Shown here: piece by piece, positions 1,334-9,700 of the stretch
Layout: every line of letters starts with the position of its first letter
How positions within the stretch are numbered: the first letter of the stretch is position 1
From: Bradyrhizobium yuanmingense
GTDB taxonomy: Bacteria > Pseudomonadota > Alphaproteobacteria > Rhizobiales > Xanthobacteraceae
DNA: 64,000 bases
Reading direction: 5' to 3'
Assembly (NCBI RefSeq): GCF_900094575.1
Contig: NZ_FMAE01000002.1
Location: 682,001 to 746,000, forward strand
Notes under the pieces: model-generated
Seen by the model: only the letters and a program-made list of their open reading frames with translations
What the model was told of the DNA's origin: nothing
Databases searched by the model: none
Position numbers and translations under genes: made by a program

Positions 1334-1534
1334 TTAACGCGCGAGGGGGGTGTTTACGGGTGGCGTCACCGTGCCGGCCTTGGGTTCGCAGGGTACCAGC
1401 TGCCGCGGCTGCGTCGTGTCCGTCTTGCGCAGGCAGCGATAGAGCTTCAGGACGTTGGAGACGTTCTCGCTGATCTCGTTGCCGGTGCCGTCACGGCAGA
1501 TGACGAGGTTTTCGGCTCGGTTTCCGGTCGGCAT
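1334..1534 (-). pseudogene. Truncated N-terminus of a DUF2235 (T6SS-lipase-like) hydrolase
   Basis: Reading leftwards from about 1534, some 50 codons match the N-terminal signature of DUF2235 alpha/beta hydrolases: NLVICRDGTGNEISENVSN followed by VLKLYRCLRKTD. In intact members the next segment is typically YDPGVGT; here it has decayed to CEPKAGT and the frame then ends at 1334. The GxSxG nucleophile region and the rest of the roughly 300-plus-residue domain are missing. It borders the lower-GC vsr-dcm island and may have been truncated by its insertion or by later deletion. Family recognition rests on the conserved DGTGNE and NVxKLY pattern. Confidence 0.7.
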
Positions 1535-1708
1535 CGCGCGCGTGCTCCACGGGATGTGCCTCAGGGTGATGCTGCCGGGGCGAGTAGAGCGGAATAGAGG
1601 ACCGCTGGTCGCGCTGATTTTGTCCCCTTGCTTACCCGTGCTGTTTTGAAGCCATTGGCGAATCTTAGAGATTCCGCTAACGATGCCCGGTGAAGGGAGG
1701 CTCATTTC

Positions 1709-2155
1709 TTGCCCGACATTGTTTCTAAGGCAAAGCGATCGTCAATGATGGCCGCCGTCCGGCAGCGGCATACCAAACCTGAGCTAAATCTCAGGCAGGC
1801 CTTACACCGCATAGGGCTTCGATATCGCTTGCATCGGAGAGATCTGCCTGGGACTCCGGACATCGTGTTCGTTCGGTCCCGTGTAGCGGTTTTTGTCAAC
1901 GGGTGTTTCTGGCATCGACATCCTGGCTGCTCGAAGGCGACTACGCCGAAGCTCCGAGCTCGATTCTGGCGAGAGAAATTTGAAGGCAATGTCGCTCGTG
2001 ATCGTCGAGCCCAATCTCAGTTGAGAAAGATGGGATGGAAAGTCGTTGTAGTGTGGGAGTGCCAAGTGAAGAATAATGAGTCGGCATCGAAGGTAGCCAA
2101 AGGCCTGTTATATGCTCGTCGAGCGCAAAATAGGCAGGCTGCACGGGGGCGATAA
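1709..2155 (+). CDS. vsr: Very short patch repair endonuclease Vsr
   Basis: Nicks DNA at T:G mismatches produced when 5-methylcytosine deaminates, starting very-short-patch repair. A TTG start at 1709 was chosen: GGGAGG ends 8 bases upstream and the product begins MPDIVSKAKRSSMMAAV, the usual Vsr opening. Family residues are present at nearly the E. coli numbering: Asp51 in PDIVF, His69 and His71 in GCFWHRH, zinc-ligand candidates Cys66, His71, Cys74 and Cys118 (VVWEC), and Asp98 in NVARD. Length (148 residues) is normal. The gene lies just upstream of, and in the same direction as, the cytosine methyltransferase whose deamination damage it would repair; the methyltransferase start is 17 bases downstream of its stop. 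Confidence 0.95.
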   Translation: MPDIVSKAKRSSMMAAVRQRHTKPELNLRQALHRIGLRYRLHRRDLPGTPDIVFVRSRVAVFVNGCFWHRHPGCSKATTPKLRARFWREKFEGNVARDRRAQSQLRKMGWKVVVVWECQVKNNESASKVAKGLLYARRAQNRQAARGR

Positions 2156-2171
2156 GGATAAATCGGATAGA

Positions 2172-3194
2172 ATGCGCGTCGTAAGTCTCTTTAGCGGAAT
2201 AGGCGGTTTTGAGTTGGGGCTGGCGCGGGCCGGCTTCCGAACGGTCATGATGTGCGAGAGCGATCCCTTGGCTCGCGCCGTGCTCCGTCATCATTTTCCC
2301 GACGTCCCAATTCGCACCGATATCCGCACACTCAAGAGACTGCCTGCATGCGAAATTCTAACGGCAGGTTGGCCATGTCAGGACTTGAGCCAAGCTGGTA
2401 GGACCGCGGGTATTGCAGGTGACCGTTCCGGATTGATCTCTGAAGTTTTCAGATTGGTGCAGGCAACCAAAACGAAACCTGAATTTATCCTGCTTGAAAA
2501 TGTTGCCTTTGCGCTTCACTTGCAGAAGGGAGCGGCCCTAAGGTTCGTCACGTCTCAGTTGGAGATGCTCGGCTACAAGTGGGCTTACAGAATTCTCGAT
2601 AGTCAGCATTTTGGGGTTCCTCAGCGGCGGCGCCGATTGTTCATTTTGGCATCACGACAACTCGCGCCAGAGACGATCCTTTTCCGCGGGGCGCTCAACA
2701 TCTCGCCTGAGGCCCACTCACATCCGCAGCAGTATGGTTTCTATTGGACGGAGGGAAATAGAGGATTAGGGTGGTCGCCCGAAGCCGTGCCCCCATTGAA
2801 GGGAGGTTCTTCTCTTTCCATTCCATCACCTCCTGCCATCTGGAACAAGGATGCACGTTCGTTCGTGACGCCGGGCGTCTCCGACGCCGAACGAATGCAG
2901 GGATTTCCAGAAGACTGGACAGATGTCGGCGCTTTAAGGAACGTCAAGAAGAGGGCCCGATGGAAGCTAGTAGGTAACGCCGTCAGCGTTCCTGTGGTCG
3001 AATGGATTGCAAAATCGCTAGCGGAAGAGGTCTCAAGCCCCCTTGAGATGGTACCTGCGAAACGCGGGTCCAAAATCAGTACAGCGGCATTTGGTCAAGC
3101 AGATCATCAGGCGATTTTCCTCAATCCGGATCATGAAGGTCCTGAAGTTTCCCAAATTGCGACTCGCCAAACAGCCAATCGCTATTTCCGTTGA
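2172..3194 (+). CDS. dcm: DNA (cytosine-5-)-methyltransferase, Dcm family
   Basis: Transfers a methyl group from SAM to carbon 5 of cytosine in a specific DNA site. The start at 2172 (MRVVSLFSGIGGFELGL) was preferred because motif I begins there; a longer frame opening at 2112 inside vsr is possible. Motifs in order: FSGIGG (residues 7-12), catalytic PC at 68-69 in GWPCQDLSQAG, ENV at 109-111, QRRRR at 151-155, and the C-terminal ERMQGFPEDW and VGNAVSVPVV segments. All catalytic motifs are present and the length (340) suits a single-domain M.C5 enzyme with a short target-recognition region. No recognisable partner nuclease sits beside it; instead there is Vsr upstream and a convergent DUF262 gene overlapping its last 74 bases. 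Composition is clearly less GC-rich than the chromosome on either side. Target site cannot be told from sequence. Confidence 0.95.
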   Translation: MRVVSLFSGIGGFELGLARAGFRTVMMCESDPLARAVLRHHFPDVPIRTDIRTLKRLPACEILTAGWPCQDLSQAGRTAGIAGDRSGLISEVFRLVQATKTKPEFILLENVAFALHLQKGAALRFVTSQLEMLGYKWAYRILDSQHFGVPQRRRRLFILASRQLAPETILFRGALNISPEAHSHPQQYGFYWTEGNRGLGWSPEAVPPLKGGSSLSIPSPPAIWNKDARSFVTPGVSDAERMQGFPEDWTDVGALRNVKKRARWKLVGNAVSVPVVEWIAKSLAEEVSSPLEMVPAKRGSKISTAAFGQADHQAIFLNPDHEGPEVSQIATRQTANRYFR

Positions 3195-4140
3195 ACGTGA
3201 GATTCGGCTTTTTACGCAAGGCGAGGCAGGTGCCGACGGCGACGGCCTCAAATCGGACTCGAGGGAGCGCTCCACCTTTGCCCGCGCGATAAAAGGCGCT
3301 CGGATAGTTGGCGTGTATGAACTGCATTGTCTTGTCGAATTCAGCGCGCTTCGCCTGAACCTTTGTCTCTGAAATAATCCTATTCGACTTGATGACATGC
3401 GAGTCGAGGAAACGACGCACGTCGTGCTTGAATTGACTGTAGTGGTCCGAATAGACCAAGAATCGAGTAACGAGTTCCTGACGCTCGCTCTCTGGATCGG
3501 CTGATTTTGCTATTCGCGGCGTTAGTTCCTTGAAGATAGGTGTTGCTGCGCATTCAAGAATTAAGTCAAGGAAGGGGCCACGGAAGGCTCCCTTTCTGAT
3601 CTCGGCATCGTGCAGCGTTTTCCCTGTTGTATTGAGGCGCCTAAAGAGCTCGATCCGGGTGCTTTCGTCGGTCCCCTCATCGAGCACAAACGATCGGATT
3701 GGGGTGTTGAACAGTCGCTTTTGAATTGTCGACGGAAGCTGCGAGTACTTTAGTCCAGTTAAAACATCGAGCCTGTCTAACGCGCCTAGGGCGAACTCAT
3801 CGTTCGCAAAGCGTACGAGGGTCCGGACCCGCTGTGAGCCGTCAACGATCTCTAGACGTCCCTTGACGTCGTAGAGGAAGATTGGCGGTATCGGAATTCT
3901 GAGGATGACACTCTCGATAAAGTACGACTGCGACTGGTCTGACCAACGCAGCGTTCTTTGGTATTCCGGAATATAGATGTCGCCTTCTTGCTCCGGTTCT
4001 TCTCTAAATTTTCGAACTAGGAGCTCTACAGGGTAGTCGGTAACGACATATCGAGCCTCCCGACGAGCTTCTTCGACGACCTCAATCATTTCATCGTCGG
4101 ACGGATGGAGCGGCAGCTCCGGAGAATCTTCGTCGCTCAT
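3121..4140 (-). CDS. DUF262 (GmrS-like, ParB/Srx-fold) domain protein
   Basis: A 339-residue protein with DUF262 hallmarks: IPEYQRTLRW at residues 57-66, IVDGSQR at 98-104 (DGQQR in most members), and FRRLNTTGKTL at 166-176 followed by E-x-R. DUF262 proteins use a ParB/sulfiredoxin-like NTPase fold; joined to a DUF1524 HNH nuclease they form GmrSD and related restriction enzymes against modified DNA. Here the C-terminal half (residues about 190-339) shows no HNH motif, so it is a stand-alone DUF262 protein and nuclease activity is not shown. It converges on the methyltransferase gene and overlaps its 3' end by 74 bp, so the two belong to one acquired module. Role in restriction, immunity control or toxicity is inference. 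Confidence 0.85.
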   Translation of the reverse strand: MSDEDSPELPLHPSDDEMIEVVEEARREARYVVTDYPVELLVRKFREEPEQEGDIYIPEYQRTLRWSDQSQSYFIESVILRIPIPPIFLYDVKGRLEIVDGSQRVRTLVRFANDEFALGALDRLDVLTGLKYSQLPSTIQKRLFNTPIRSFVLDEGTDESTRIELFRRLNTTGKTLHDAEIRKGAFRGPFLDLILECAATPIFKELTPRIAKSADPESERQELVTRFLVYSDHYSQFKHDVRRFLDSHVIKSNRIISETKVQAKRAEFDKTMQFIHANYPSAFYRAGKGGALPRVRFEAVAVGTCLALRKKPNLTFNGNSDWLFGESQFGKLQDLHDPD

Positions 4141-4255
4141 TCAAACTTCCTCGTAGGTGCAACATCCAAGCGCAACCAAGGGTGGTTGGTCAATCAGTCT
4201 AAAGAAGCGCTCCAAAGGAGGGGCGGCAGCGTGCTGCAATAACCGCTCGGCGTGC

Positions 4256-4290
4256 AAAAACAAAAACGGCCGGATCTTCCGATCCGGCCG
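4256..4290 (-). terminator. Rho-independent terminator of rpmB
   Basis: A perfect 10-bp stem (4267-4276 with 4281-4290, TTCC loop on the + strand) is followed, in the leftward direction, by a T-rich stretch (TTTTTGTTTTTG). It lies 73 bp beyond the rpmB stop and also marks the boundary with the vsr-dcm-DUF262 island. Confidence 0.9.
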
Positions 4291-4362
4291 CTACTCGAAC
4301 TCTTACTCGGCTAAGCCTACGCCACGCGACGCAACTTAGCCCCCGCCCTTATCCTAAAAATC

Positions 4363-4671
4363 TCAGCTCGCCTGCTTCGCCGGCTGGGTGTCGCCGACCT
4401 TCTTCTGGATGGCGCGCTTCAGCTCGACCGCGCGCGGGGAGAGCGCATCGGTGTTGGCCTTGAGCAGGTAGGCGTCTAAGCCGCCATTGTGGTCGACGCT
4501 CTTGATGGCGTTGGTGGAGACGCGCAGGCGCACGTTGCGGCCCAGGGCTTCCGAGATGAACGTCACGTTGACGAGGTTCGGCAGGAAGCGGCGCTTGGTC
4601 TTGATGTTGGAGTGGCTGACCTTGTGGCCGACGAGGGGGCCCTTGGCCGTCAGTTCGCAGCGGCGAGACAT
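4363..4671 (-). CDS. rpmB: 50S ribosomal protein L28
   Basis: Structural protein of the large ribosomal subunit. The product begins [20 protein letters not shown], contains [13 protein letters not shown] and [20 protein letters not shown], and is 102 residues long, the usual size in alphaproteobacteria. It is a single-gene unit reading leftwards and ends at a strong terminator. Confidence 0.98.
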
Positions 4672-4870
4672 GGCATAAATCCTTTAGTTCGAACCCCCAA
4701 CGAGTGCGGCCGCCATTTCGGCGCCACGGGGGCAAATTCTTTCGTCCTTGCAGGGAGCGGGCGGACGTATAGGGGGGAAGGGGCCTTGCGTCAAGGCGAC
4801 GGGCCGTTTTTGGCCCGTCGTCCCGGGGCAGGCAGAGCCCGAACCCGGGATCTCGTGCCCCGCGCTCGGT

Positions 4871-4970
4871 GTCATCGCCCGGCTCGACCGGGCGATCCAG
4901 TACGCCGCAGGGGCGCGGCTGACCAGAGGCACTGCGGCGTACTGGATGCCCCGCCTTCGCGGGGCATGAC
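4871..4970. repeat. Palindromic intergenic repeat
   Basis: A perfect 14-bp inverted repeat (TCCAGTACGCCGCA at 4896-4909, its complement at 4933-4946), flanked by GTCAT at 4871 and ATGAC at 4966, with further GC hairpins (CCCCGCCTTCGCGGGG). It fills most of the 493-bp gap upstream of rpmB; the rest of 4672-5164 shows no gene. Confidence 0.75.
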
Positions 4971-5164
4971 AGCTGAGGGTGGGGAGAGCTCGGAACGCCT
5001 CCCCTTTACCTTCCGATCACCAAAACGGCAATGATTGTCGCCCCTTACCATCACATAAAGGGCGTATTCGCCGTCGAAGAGTCCGGTGGAGTTCCCGGGG
5101 CTGCATGCCCCGACACATTGTTTGTCGCCGGTTTTGGCTTAAGTAACAGCATATCGCGCTCTGA

Positions 5165-6085
5165 TTGGATTGTTTCGTGCCGATAACGCTTCATTTCGCG
5201 CAAGTCCTGCGCTCAGCCTGTCTGTGTCGGGGCGTCCGCTTGGACGTCCCCTTGGCCGGCCGGCTGATGGCGCTTTGTGGCCTGGCGGTGGTGCTGGGCT
5301 TGGCGTCCGGCGCAGCGCCCGCGGCGGCGCAAGGCAAGCTCGAGGCGCAATATGAGGCGACGCTGGCGGGCATTCCCGTCGGCAAGGGCGCCTGGAACAT
5401 CGATATCCAGGACGACGTGTTCTCGGCGGCGGCCGCCGGCGGCACCACCGGGCTTTTGAAGTCGTTCACGGGCGGGTCCGGCACCGGCGCCAGCCAGGGG
5501 CGCGTCGTGGGCGGCGCGCTGGTTGCGACCGGCTACCAGGCCTCCACCACCACCCAGAAGAAGACCGAAGAGATCCGCATCACCCTCGACAAGGGCAATG
5601 TGAAGGATTTTGCCATCCTGCCGGAGCCGCCGGTCGATCCCGACCGCATCGTCGTCACCGAGGCGCACCGCCGCGGCGTGTGGGACCCCATGACGGCCTC
5701 GCTGCTGCGCGTGCCCGGCACCGGTGATCCCGTTTCGCAGGACGCCTGCCACAGCTCCGCGCCGGTGTTCGACGGCCGCATGCGCTACGAGCTCAAGCTC
5801 GATTTCAAGCGCATGGAGACCGTGAAGGCGGAGAAGGGGTACAAGGGCCCGGTCGTGGTCTGCGCGATCTATTTCGTGCCGATCGCCGGCTACATCCCCG
5901 ACCGCCCGGTGATCAAATACCTCGCCGCCCAGCGCAACATGGAGATCGCGTTCGCCCCCATCGCCGGCACGCGCATCCTGGTCCCGTTCTGGCTGAAAGT
6001 GCCGACCCCGCTAGGCCCGGCCATGCTGGAAGCCACCAGCTTCATCACCGCCCCCCAGCCGCCACGGGTCGCCAAGACGCAGTAG
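5165..6085 (+). CDS. Exported DUF3108 domain protein
   Basis: Conserved alphaproteobacterial protein of unknown function matching the DUF3108 pattern: after a hydrophobic signal segment (LCGLAVVLGLASGAAPAAAQG) the mature part begins KLEAQYEATLAGIPVGKG and includes DPMTASLLRVPGTGD and the CAIYFVPIAGY region. DUF3108 proteins are predicted periplasmic beta-rich proteins. The start is uncertain: TTG at 5165, GTG at 5177 and ATG at 5267 are all in frame and none has a clear ribosome-binding site; the ATG at 5267 would leave a signal peptide of ordinary length. It stands alone between rpmB and the helicase gene. Confidence 0.8.
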   Translation: MDCFVPITLHFAQVLRSACLCRGVRLDVPLAGRLMALCGLAVVLGLASGAAPAAAQGKLEAQYEATLAGIPVGKGAWNIDIQDDVFSAAAAGGTTGLLKSFTGGSGTGASQGRVVGGALVATGYQASTTTQKKTEEIRITLDKGNVKDFAILPEPPVDPDRIVVTEAHRRGVWDPMTASLLRVPGTGDPVSQDACHSSAPVFDGRMRYELKLDFKRMETVKAEKGYKGPVVVCAIYFVPIAGYIPDRPVIKYLAAQRNMEIAFAPIAGTRILVPFWLKVPTPLGPAMLEATSFITAPQPPRVAKTQ

Positions 6086-6113
6086 GCGAGGAGGCCGCAC
6101 CGCTCTCTCCGCC

Positions 6114-6715: not shown

Positions 6716-9700
6716 ATGGCTTTTTCCTCCTCCCCCTTCGCCTCCGAGCGCGCACCCGGCGCGGGCGTCACTGCGGTGCTCGGTCCGACCAACACCGGCA
6801 AGACCCATCTCGCCATTGAGCGGATGCTGGCGCATCCCTCGGGCATGATCGGCCTGCCGCTGCGCCTGCTCGCGCGCGAGGTCTACAACAAGATCGCCGC
6901 TCGATCCGGCGAGGCCAGCGTCGCGCTCGTCACCGGCGAGGAGAAGATCAAGCCGAAGAATCCGCGCTATTGGGTCTCGACCGTCGAGGCGATGCCGCGC
7001 GATATCGACGTTTCCTTCCTCGCCGTCGACGAGGTCCAGATCGCCGCCGATCTCGAGCGCGGCCACGTCTTCACCGATCGCATCCTCAACCGCCGCGGCC
7101 GCGACGAGACGCTGTTGTTGGGCGCCGCCACCATGCGCCCGATCATCGAGCGCCTGTTGCCGGGCGTGTCCATGATCACGCGGCCCAGATTGTCGCAGCT
7201 CGAATTCGCCGGCGACCGCAAGATCACGCGCCAGCCGCGCCGCACCGCCATCGTCGCGTTCTCGGCGGATGAAGTCTACGCGATTGCCGAGCTGATCCGC
7301 CGCCAGCACGGCGGCGCCGCCGTGGTGCTGGGCTCGCTGTCGCCGCGCACACGAAACGCGCAAGTGGCGATGTTCCAGAACGGCGACGTCGATTATCTCG
7401 TCGCCACCGATGCCGTCGGCATGGGCCTCAATCTCGACGTCGACCACGTCGCCTTCGCCTCCGACCGCAAGTTCGACGGCTATCAGTTCCGCCGCCTGAC
7501 ACCGTCCGAATTCGCGCAGATCGCGGGCCGCGCGGGCCGCGCCACCCGCAACGGCACCTTCGGCACCACGGGCCGCTGCGCGCCGTTCGAGCCCGAGCTC
7601 GTCAACGCGCTGCAGAACCACACCTTCGATGCGGTGAAGGTGCTGCAATGGCGCAATTCCAAGCTCGATTTCTCCTCGCTCGGCGCGCTCCAGGTCTCGC
7701 TGAACCTCGCCCCCGGCCACGAGACGCTGACGCGCGCGCCGATCGCCGAGGACATGCGCGTGCTCGATCACGCCGCCCGCGACGGCGAGGTGCGCGATAT
7801 CGCGCATGGCAAGGCCGCCGTGGAGCGGCTCTGGGAAGCCTGCCAGGTCCCGGACTACAGAAAGCTGTCGCCGGCCGCCCATGCCGAGCTGGTGACGACG
7901 CTATACGGCTTCCTGATGCGCAAGGGCTGCATTCCCGATGCCTGGTTCGAGTCCCAGGTCACCCAGGCCGACCGCATCGACGGCGACATCGACACGCTGT
8001 CGGCCCGAATCGCCCAGATCCGCACCTGGACCTTCGTCGCCAACCGCCCGGACTGGCTGAAAGACCCGGAACGCTGGCAGGGGATCGCGCGGGAGGTCGA
8101 AAATAAATTATCGGATGCGCTCCATGAACGCTTGACTGAGCGTTTCGTTGATCGCCGGACCAGTGTATTGATGCGCCGCCTGCGGGAGAACACGAGCTTG
8201 AATACTGAAATCGGCAAGACCGGCGAAGTCATCGTCGAAGGCCATGTCATCGGCCGTCTCGATGGCTTCACCTTTGCACCGGATGCGGCGGAAGCCGGCT
8301 CCGATGCGAAAGCCTTGCAGGCTGCAGCGCAAGCGGTGCTCGCCGGCGAGATCAACGCGCGCGCCGAAAAGCTGGGCAATGCGCCGGACGAGCAGTTCGT
8401 GCTGACGTCCGAAGGCATCATCCGCTGGACCGGCGATGCCGTGGCCCGCCTTGCCGCCGCAGACGAGGCGCTGCATCCGCGCATCCGCATCATCTCCGAC
8501 GAGCGCCTGACCGGCGCGCCCCGCGACAAGGTGCAGGCGCGGCTCGAGCTCTGGCTCAAGACGCACATCGAAAAGCTGCTCGGGCCGATGTTCGAGCTTT
8601 CGAAGGCCGAGGACGTCACCGGCATTGCCCGCGGCATCGCCTATCAGCTGGTCGAGGCGCTCGGCGTGCTCGAGCGTCCGAAGATCGCCAGCGAGCTGAA
8701 GGATCTCGACCAGCCCTCGCGCGCCGTGTTGCGCAAATACGGCGTCCGCTTCGGCGCCTATCACATCTATTTCCCCGGCCTGCTCAAGCCCGCCGCGCGT
8801 GCGCTCGCCGCGCTGCTCTGGGCGCTGAAGCAGGACAATGTCGATCTCTCCGCGCTCTCGGGCGCGCAGCATCTGGCCTCCTCGGGGCGTACCTCGTTCC
8901 CGGTCGACAAGGCGCTGCCGCGCGATGCCTATCGCGTGCTCGGCTACAAGCAGGCCGGCGAGCGCGCCGTGCGCGTCGACATCCTGGAGCGCCTCGCCGA
9001 CCTGATCCGCCCGGCGCTGGCCTGGCGCGAAAATTCGCCGGGCGAAAAGCCCGCCGGCGCGTTCGACGGCCGCAGCTTCGTGGTGACGCAGGCGATGACC
9101 TCGCTGACCGGATCTGCCGGCGAGGATTTCGCCTCCGTGCTGCGCGCGCTCGGCTATCGCATGGAGAAGCGCCCGCCGCTGCCGCCGAAGCCTGTGGTCG
9201 CCGAGCAGGTCGTGACCGAGCAGATCGTCACTGAGACCGTCGCGGCCGAGACGCCGCCCGCTGAAGGCAGCGCAGAGACCTCGACCGAGACTGCGGCTGA
9301 AGCCGTTGCCGGCCTGCCGGCTGAGGCCCCGGCCGCTGAGGCTACGGCCGAATCCGTCACCGTCGAAGACGCGCCCGGCATGGAGCCGCACGACGAGCCC
9401 GCTCCTGCGGAGGCTCACGAGGAGCCGGCGCTGGAAGCGTCTCCGGAAGCGCCCGTCACGCCCGAGGACGCCCCCGGAATCGCGCCGCCCGCAGAAGAGG
9501 CTGCGACGCCCGCCGAGGCTGCCGGCCTCGAAGCGGCTGCCGCCGAGACCGCCGCGACGGAAGCTGCTGCATCCCCCGATGCTGCCGCGCCTGAGGCAAC
9601 AGTCGCACCGGCCCAGCCTGAGCTGGTCGAGGTCTGGCGCCCTGCCGGTCGTCACGAAGATCGCAAGCCGCGCCACGAGCGCCATCGCCATCAGCGCCAC

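Follow-up and report, generated by a model that had tools for sequence, protein, structure and literature searches.

Three genes lie at the locus described here, within a 64,000-nucleotide stretch of DNA from Bradyrhizobium yuanmingense (the window): those encoding a Vsr endonuclease and a Dcm-like C5-cytosine methylase and, on the opposite strand, one encoding a DUF262 protein (Table 1). The last two converge, and their 3' ends overlap at positions 3121 to 3194. Pfam matches and a recount of the base composition confirmed the genes, coordinates, and low GC content described in an earlier note, including its figure of 27 G/C among the 60 bases at 3361 to 3420. GC content is 53.6% across positions 1709 to 4140, versus 64.6% for the whole window; equally low values were found in 5 of 1,232 sliding windows of the same length, all five at this locus. 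Similarly, GC3 is 0.54 to 0.59 at the locus versus 0.84 to 0.93 in four flanking genes. A relative (locus L269, genome G008) aligns to the flanks (1021 to 1592 and 4255 to 6086) and carries different genes between them. Together with the composition, this supports the earlier view that the segment was acquired.

Table 1. Features of the Vsr-dcm-DUF262 locus (positions in the window)
Feature	Position	Strand	Remarks
Vsr mismatch endonuclease	1709..2155	+	Complete, with a TTG start codon; accessory to the module
C5-cytosine methylase (Dcm-like, lineage mtA)	2172..3194	+	Pfam DNA_methylase; frame open from 2112
DUF262/GmrSD_N (ParB/Srx-like NTPase) protein	3121..4140	-	Pfam E=3.3e-23; IVDGSQR intact
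Deletion junction	3146..3155		DNA alignment to L002
Acquired low-GC segment	1593..4254		GC and flank alignment to relative L269 (G008)

The Vsr protein matches Pfam Vsr (E=1.7e-27) as well as the NCBIfam vsr model (above cutoff), and its residues 3 to 127 align to a solved Vsr structure (1cw0). The methylase matches Pfam DNA_methylase at E=3.7e-52, with homology starting at the ATG at 2172, and keeps the motifs PCQ, ENV, and GNAVSVPV. It thus adjoins the DUF262 gene as a recognizable C5-cytosine methylase, though a C-terminally truncated one, ending at model position 335 of 375 where 12 of 12 other Dcm proteins reach 371 to 375. The DUF262 protein has a GmrSD_N domain (3.3e-23) with its DGxQR motif in the form IVDGSQR, and no Pfam match to HNH or DUF1524 was found in it or in five neighboring window proteins, as the earlier note had read from the sequence. 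Besides Vsr, the Pfam scan of these six proteins revealed no DNase, the partner that a type II restriction-modification methylase would have. Elsewhere in the genus, the same methylase lineage adjoins Vsr at 9 of 11 loci. Since 11 of 11 other genus loci with a Dcm-Vsr pair of this type lack a DUF262 gene of the clade defined below (1.5-kb flanks; six also inspected with flanks of approximately 5 kb), the Dcm-Vsr pair is separable from DUF262.

The convergent overlap is real but, as could not be seen from this sequence alone, represents a deletion junction, and a regulatory role for it was rejected. In the nearest relatives (75 to 77% identity), a gene encoding an MAE_28990-like, RNase-type HEPN protein lies between DUF262 and dcm. 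Compared with the closest relative, approximately 0.9 kb is missing from the window: the whole HEPN gene, along with 27 codons from the 3' end of DUF262 and 50 from that of dcm. DNA homology to the dcm gene of locus L002 stops at window position 3145 and that to its DUF262 gene begins at 3156, while L002 positions 6952 to 7849 (898 nucleotides, containing the entire HEPN gene) have no counterpart. Correspondingly, Dcm is homologous to its L002 equivalent up to approximately base 3145 and then continues for 16 read-through codons, with about 50 C-terminal codons of L002 absent; the DUF262 protein is homologous over residues 1 to 328, followed by 11 residues from a foreign frame, and has lost its conserved C-terminal helix. 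Because the alignment to a second relative, L033, extends on the dcm side only to 3009, the junction was placed with L002 and the protein alignment. The sequence ATTG is present on both parental sides of the junction and possibly reflects microhomology, although four bases may agree by chance.

No HEPN gene lies directly downstream of DUF262 in the window. An assembly error would be a conceivable cause in a draft genome of 108 contigs, but we consider it extremely unlikely: the junction is internal to a contig at least 746 kb long, both reading frames continue across it, and the rest of the assembly yielded no HEPN of this kind at E<=0.1, while the same query matched four of four control genomes at E<=2e-70 (the query alignment includes sequences from three of these genomes but not from G227). 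Very probably, the window contains the decayed form of a larger module, in which a deletion took the HEPN effector and joined what was left of dcm and DUF262 at their shortened 3' ends. With similar confidence, no more remains than an orphan methylase, the Vsr repair enzyme that goes with it, and the relic of a sensor. Since the toxin and the ends of its two neighbors were deleted, the module most likely no longer functions here.

All three frames have nevertheless stayed open, and the DUF262 protein keeps 45 of the 49 positions conserved in at least 90% of its clade, which suggests either that the deletion is recent or that the truncated proteins are still useful. Among the four lost positions are an asparagine and an arginine in the tail (N338 and R346 of L002), both kept in 60 of 60 aligned methylase-linked proteins. 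The DUF262 protein has 31 amino-acid singletons in the window versus 16 in L002 and 20 in L033 (ratio of codon positions 1 and 2 to position 3, 1.0 versus 0.62 and 0.53), and Dcm has 41 versus 13 and 30 (1.13 versus 0.62 and 1.03); this pattern may hint at relaxed constraint, but the window also lies on the longer branch, and third positions are possibly saturated. The residue at the tail position, asparagine or histidine, was also considered as a sign of methylase linkage. That idea was dropped, since a wider alignment has asparagine in methylase-less groups too, so that histidine appears to be the derived state, in a single small branch.

The intact arrangement was looked for among 239 DUF262 loci, reduced to 181 by deduplication at 95% DUF262 identity. 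With our own DUF262 HMM, clade limits of 330 and 245 bits were set after gaps in the scores were visible, and L112, with DUF262 split into two frames, was added by hand; the window protein scores 445 bits (limit, at least 330). Every one of the 67 further non-redundant clade loci has HEPN directly downstream of DUF262, and the HEPN-less form was seen in none of them. A C5-cytosine methylase is present in 61 of the 67, the six exceptions being two loci cut off by a contig edge and four that make up one side branch, while Vsr is optional (8 of 67). The suspected association between DUF262 and a C5-methylase, sometimes with Vsr, therefore does recur across genomes. Outside the clade, a methylase (at least 100 bits, within 2.5 kb) accompanies 0 of 16 loci of the next DUF262 group and 1 of 97 distant loci, the latter count being a lower bound because only 28 of the 97 have 2.5 kb on both sides. 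These limits exclude two distant candidates, at L151 (82 bits, approximately 0.6 kb away) and L107 (annotated dcm, 86 bits, 3 kb off and beside its own MvaI-type restriction enzyme).

The methylase-linked loci, the window copy (L053, labeled "win") included, form one branch with a support of 0.75 in a DUF262 tree of 91 tips that has moderate supports. Of the 97 distant loci, this tree includes 10; L132 was chosen as its root, and L112, L212, L217, and L232 are left out. Three methylase lineages (which we label mtA, mtB, and mtC, the last defined by an mtB score below 250 bits) occupy the module slot, in several gene orders. The module is found on named plasmids of Alpha-, Beta-, and Gammaproteobacteria and Actinomycetota; 47 of the 67 loci are on IMG/VR viral contigs and 9 on plasmids. 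The lists of viral and plasmid matches cover 80 of 142 loci and 40 of 754 records, respectively.

The HEPN motif RNxxAHG occurs in 63 of 67 clade loci. Pfam PF18737 is matched at 8.5e-18 by the HEPN protein of L034 and at 1.1e-4, below cutoff, by that of L002, which matches PF18735 just above cutoff (1.3e-6). Since fold comparisons with the PDB were weak (top rows HEPN toxins, E=0.42) and the sequence profile had no PDB match at E<=0.1, the putative HEPN identity rests on Pfam, the annotation of plasmid relatives, and the motif. An alignment-based HEPN scan of viral contigs gave no confirmed match, short search patterns being limiting, whereas DUF262 scans of the same collection did yield HEPN-bearing loci.

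As for the DUF262 protein, its structural model resembles ParB-nucleotide structures (7bnr, Z 8.8, rmsd 2.8 over 95 residues) as well as BrxU and SspE, and fold searches of the PDB placed ParB/Srx, BrxU, SspE, and DndI above noise; these matches are middling, with no Foldseek E<=0.001 and Z values close to those that unrelated models can reach. Its profile matches BrxU at 2.4e-4, and a PDB sequence search with the window protein gave a single weak, irrelevant match. The earlier suggestion of a hidden nuclease site in residues 190 to 339 found no indication, this region being all-helical in the predicted structure of a full-length relative, although the region may still have activity. The same note had taken the three genes for a complete minimal system, in which DUF262 acts on DNA in the wrong modification state and no separate nuclease is needed. 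The frames are open, the NTPase motif is intact, and members of the ParB/sulfiredoxin superfamily are described as able to nick single-stranded DNA (PMC12839542). We still regard such a system as very improbable, given that all 67 other clade loci collected have HEPN, that both DUF262 and Dcm are truncated within C termini that are otherwise conserved, and that the overlap is a scar; because the effector was deleted, the proposal is not supported.

The three window genes are probably the remains of a recurrent bacterial gene set in which a DNA sensor is combined with a toxin that cuts RNA, a DNA methylase, and in some cases a repair enzyme, and the intact set likely protects against phages. 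As a whole, a decayed module in the window combined with restriction-modification logic and an RNA-cutting arm in its intact relatives is the best explanation, with a probability of roughly 0.6. That intact modules follow this logic is, taken separately, a tentative inference. The methylase, if active, would mark host DNA; the ParB-like NTPase would survey DNA, telling methylated self from foreign; unmarked or wrongly marked foreign DNA would switch the NTPase and release the HEPN RNase, halting growth of the infected cell; and Vsr would mend T:G mismatches arising from deamination of 5mC. Such a system permits decay by loss of the effector with the methylase kept, as in the window. A still more tentative version has the NTPase read missing cognate 5mC, which would make the methylase the antitoxin and the window a case of toxin-first decay. 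Within lineage mtB, methylase and DUF262 sequences are weakly coupled (r=0.30, 17 loci), and tight matching of sensor to methylase specificity is therefore not favored. Since methylase-less DUF262-HEPN pairs exist and persist (L085, L099, L131, and all but one of the 16 loci in the next group), the pair cannot always be toxic without a linked methylase. A literature search returned no experiment on the HEPN-ParB-methylase association.

A type IV-like alarm, in which recognition of hypermodified phage DNA by DUF262 activates HEPN while the methylase serves, for example, to mask host sites from a co-resident enzyme, seems unlikely. Phage T4 does have modified cytosines. Modified cytosine is the target of GmrSD and BrxU, the Dazbog DUF262 protein is said probably to recognize methylated DNA, and PD-T4-2, listed under DUF262 and HEPN, protects against T4 (PMC10952713, PMC9519451). 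However, a 5mC-triggered sensor next to its own 5mC methylase would be self-destructive, and the methylase slot stays filled (61 of 67 loci) while its lineage changes. A toxin-antitoxin module, with DUF262 as the protein antitoxin that restrains the HEPN toxin and the methylase as an epigenetic regulator or addiction element of plasmids and prophages, does not on its own account for the retention of a methylase of changing lineage at 61 of 67 loci; we consider this improbable, even though DUF262 and HEPN co-vary tightly in sequence distance (r=0.89 over 20 loci) and many copies lie on plasmids and IMG/VR viral contigs among the matches listed.

Restriction-modification is usually understood as DNA cutting, whereas a mobile module of C5-methylase, DUF262 NTPase, and RNase would tie a shutdown at the RNA level to the methylation state of DNA. 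Whether the module depends on the methylase can be tested directly. The locus also illustrates how misleading one degraded copy can be: both the overlap and the seemingly "minimal" system were created by the deletion. The module recurs on viral contigs and plasmids, yet five of its HEPN proteins escape the PADLOC 2023 models (none better than E=0.01).

The association itself is already noted in one line of a 2013 table, where HEPN family MAE_28990 is described as "In operon with a ParB nuclease and DNA methylase genes" (Anantharaman et al. 2013, PMC3710099, Table 1). The gene kinds are the same three, but that line gives no counts, Vsr, or mechanism, and the window copy lacks HEPN. T4 plaquing on ECOR65 increased when PD-T4-2 was deleted (Vassallo et al. 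2022, PMC9519451; review PMC10952713). This system is listed under DUF262 and HEPN. The window DUF262 matches its PADLOC model PD-T4-2_A (1.6e-29) but matches NsnA, the top-scoring PADLOC model, better (2.1e-53); the NsnA model carries no description, and a literature search on the name found nothing relevant. The accounts of PD-T4-2 in these two sources mention no methylase, and five clade HEPN proteins had no match to PD-T4-2_B (two scanned at E<=0.1, three at E<=1). GmrSD, BrxU, and SspE share the DUF262 (ParB/Srx) NTPase domain with its DGxQR-type motif but carry or pair with HNH (DUF1524), whereas the partner here is HEPN and the C-terminal half of DUF262 is predicted to be helical. With type II restriction-modification systems that have a Dcm-like methylase and Vsr, the module has these two enzymes in common; it has no conserved DNase, and DUF262-HEPN occupies the slot of the restriction enzyme. 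PrrC, unlike the module, is combined with an ABC NTPase domain and backs up a working restriction enzyme (PMC3710099). What PrrC and its type I system, PrrI, would share with the module, by inference on the module's side, is a HEPN RNase kept silent beside a DNA modification system and freed on infection (PMC3710099).

The three genes that the earlier note described, encoding Vsr, a Dcm-type methyltransferase and a DUF262 protein, lie where it placed them, and their families are borne out by profile matches (see the table). Its report of low GC content at this locus also held, at 53.6% versus 64.6% for the whole window; only 5 of 1232 sliding windows of equal length were equally GC poor, all five of them at the module locus, and GC3 of the module genes was 0.54 to 0.59 versus 0.84 to 0.93 in four flanking genes. 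Since the flanks (positions 1021-1592 and 4255-6086) align in a related locus, L269, around different genes, the segment 1593-4254 of this 8.2-Mb draft genome (108 contigs) is, judging from the alignment, inserted or exchanged DNA.

Genes of the module locus in the window
Feature	Position	Strand	Basis
Vsr	1709-2155	+	Profile match
C5-cytosine methylase (dcm)	Homology from 2172, frame end 3194	+	Profile match
DUF262 (GmrSD_N) protein	3121-4140	-	Pfam match

The interval taken up by this segment (1593-4254), bounded by a DUF2235/Tle1-like remnant on one side and rpmB on the other, is a possible hotspot for defence genes: at the matching place, L269 encodes a reverse transcriptase (RVT_1) together with a DUF3800 protein (2027-4590), and a second relative, L271, carries a ResIII/DEAD helicase on the side of rpmB (1869-5059). 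A short frame in the window (1334-1705, minus strand) matches the N-terminal part, positions 2-54 of 287, of T6SS_Tle1-like_cat, a phospholipase domain of DUF2235 type (Pfam, 1.4e-7), and is evidently a gene fragment adjoining the insertion.

In the window, a DUF262-HEPN-methylase family is represented by a remnant. By DUF262 protein, its nearest named relatives are a Rhodopseudomonas MAG (L002; 77%) and Bradyrhizobium sp. Ec3.3 (L003/L033; 75%), in both of which the DUF262 gene is followed on the same strand by a gene for a 221- to 231-residue protein, with dcm and vsr facing them. Profile matches and motif identify this protein as HEPN: the L002 protein matches HEPN_RiboL-PSP (Pfam, 1.3e-6, just over the cut-off) and HEPN_MAE_28990 (1.1e-4, under the cut-off), and its L034 homologue matches the latter at 8.5e-18, with the motif RNxLAHG. 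DNA homology between the window and L002 stops at 3145 on the dcm side and starts at 3156 on the DUF262 side; between the corresponding points, L002 has 898 nt (6952-7849) with no equivalent in the window, and these hold the entire HEPN gene, the last 27 DUF262 codons and about the last 50 dcm codons. No HEPN gene of this kind was matched in the window's genome at E<=0.1, with the same query positive in four of four control genomes, three of which had contributed sequences to it.

Both neighbouring genes were left without their tails. The lost DUF262 tail corresponds to the last, confidently predicted helix in L002 (residues 340-355; model mean pLDDT 87.1, pTM 0.64), whose Asn and Arg are kept in 60 of 60 aligned methylase-linked proteins among the matches listed and are common in more distant DUF262 proteins too. 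The window protein is otherwise well preserved: of 49 highly conserved positions it retains 45, and the tail accounts for two of the four losses. The window dcm stops at position 335 of a 375-position model; all 12 other members, found at E<=1e-60 in 257 genomes of the genus, reach 371-375. Elsewhere, vsr of Bradyrhizobium Ec3.3 (L033:4551-5370) is spread over three frames and the L163 methylase (6785-7806) over two, reflecting either decay of further module parts or sequencing errors.

Relatives were drawn from overlapping samples of 265 (genus), 397 (order), 385 (class) and 398 (phylum) genomes, from two scans of IMG/VR (the second yielding the best 80 of 142) and from the best 40 of 754 plasmid records, and were scanned with HMMs built in this analysis; clustering at 95% identity reduced 239 loci to 181. 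The clade comprises DUF262 proteins scoring at least 330 bits plus L112, a two-frame DUF262 gene added by hand. The association of DUF262 with a C5-methylase and sometimes Vsr, on which the earlier note's reading turned, recurs: among the matches listed, the 67 clade loci besides the window carry HEPN in 67, a methylase within 2.5 kb in 61 and Vsr in 8. HEPN and methylase were present in 47 and 44 of 47 viral-contig loci and in 9 and 8 of 9 plasmid loci (both among the matches listed), and in 11 and 9 of 11 genome loci. Of the six listed loci lacking a methylase, L193 and L212 lie at a contig edge, and the other four (L085, L099, L131 and L121) group together as a small side branch of the tree; among these, the contig of L121 also breaks off, and L131 is free of methylase over about 5 kb on each side. 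In this branch, whose DUF262-HEPN pair has no detected methylase, His replaces the conserved tail Asn.

Seventeen listed plasmid records reach clade level (36 to 62% identity); the 11 examined, from Alpha-, Beta- and Gammaproteobacteria and Actinomycetota, carry HEPN in 11 and a methylase in 10. In E. coli plasmid L099, a frame resembling, by eye, an IS21-type transposase follows HEPN. The methylase-less pair of this plasmid was detected in 9 of 5426 E. coli genomes, always on plasmids, and 8 of these have most of it. The K. pneumoniae copy, L097, is carried by a 32-kb linear record, perhaps a phage-plasmid, that also encodes a DUF1367 protein and a ParB-family partition protein. At L111 (4939-7816), a second C5-methylase match and Vsr adjoin the module's own methylase.

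Among the matches listed, the next DUF262 group has HEPN in 15 of 16 loci and a methylase in none, and, of the remaining 97 loci, 6 show weak HEPN-model matches and 1 has a methylase, just 28 of the 97 having 2.5 kb on both sides; weaker or farther methylase matches at L151 and L107 fell outside the limits and were not counted. In L107, dcm lies about 3 kb upstream of the distant DUF262 gene, together with an enzyme of MvaI type. On plasmids of Klebsiella, Phaeobacter, Hymenobacter and Kocuria (L106-L109), an annotated HEPN gene not recognised by our HEPN model comes after each of the more distant DUF262 genes, and none of these loci has an adjacent methylase.

Among the matches listed, the 61 methylase-bearing loci all have HEPN downstream of DUF262 on the same strand, and protein distances of the two correlate at 0.89 (20 loci). 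The methylase, with PCQ and ENV motifs at 60 of these 61 loci, belongs to three lineages (50 mtB; 5 mtA, the window type; 5 mtC, with mtB scores below 250 bits; and one mtB split in two frames), and may be convergent to the pair, follow it or precede it; its protein distances correlate with those of DUF262 at 0.48 (0.30 within mtB, 17 loci). DUF262 and HEPN therefore form a fixed unit, and the slot for the methylase is still filled though its occupant has changed. Since the 11 other mtA methylases in the genus all lack a clade DUF262 gene (1.5-kb flanks; six also about 5 kb) and 9 of them lie beside Vsr, Dcm-Vsr is an independent pair, seemingly acquired by the module. AspBHI-type restriction enzymes (RE_AspBHI_N plus Mrr_cat) occur near the module in Bradyrhizobium Ec3.3 (L033:9443-10687) and near a Dcm-Vsr pair of another genome (L273:3640-4839); AspBHI cuts 5mC-containing DNA, which makes its presence alongside a 5mC methylase odd.

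For a mechanism, the established basis is the HEPN motif, the gene linkage and the DUF262 sequence family (a Pfam match and a profile match to BrxU), whose predicted fold resembles ParB-nucleotide structures to a middling degree (7bnr, Z 8.8, rmsd 2.8 over 95 residues). DUF262 would, by analogy with GmrSD, BrxU and SspE (PMC10952713), read DNA modification; HEPN would be the RNase effector, and the methylase would supply self-marking. Self-marking is argued for most strongly by the main branch, which exchanges its methylase with no loss seen (61 of 63 loci among the matches listed, one in a split frame; contig edges truncate the remaining two), and by the sole copy to lose a component, in which the missing part is the effector. 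It is argued against by the side branch and by more distant DUF262-HEPN pairs, which live without a linked methylase, and by the anti-phage system PD-T4-2.

A literature search, mostly of titles and abstracts, returned no study of the module among the open-literature matches listed, excerpts of PMC12839542 and PMC10853773 hold no description of it, and no PADLOC 2023 model matched five clade HEPN proteins better than E=0.01. PD-T4-2 is listed under DUF262 and HEPN and protects against T4, with no methylase mentioned in the excerpted entries (PMC10952713, PMC9519451). The family, a variation on known kinds that has drawn little notice, had its association printed as early as 2013, when one line in Table 1 of Anantharaman et al. 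placed MAE_28990 "In operon with a ParB nuclease and DNA methylase genes" (PMC3710099).
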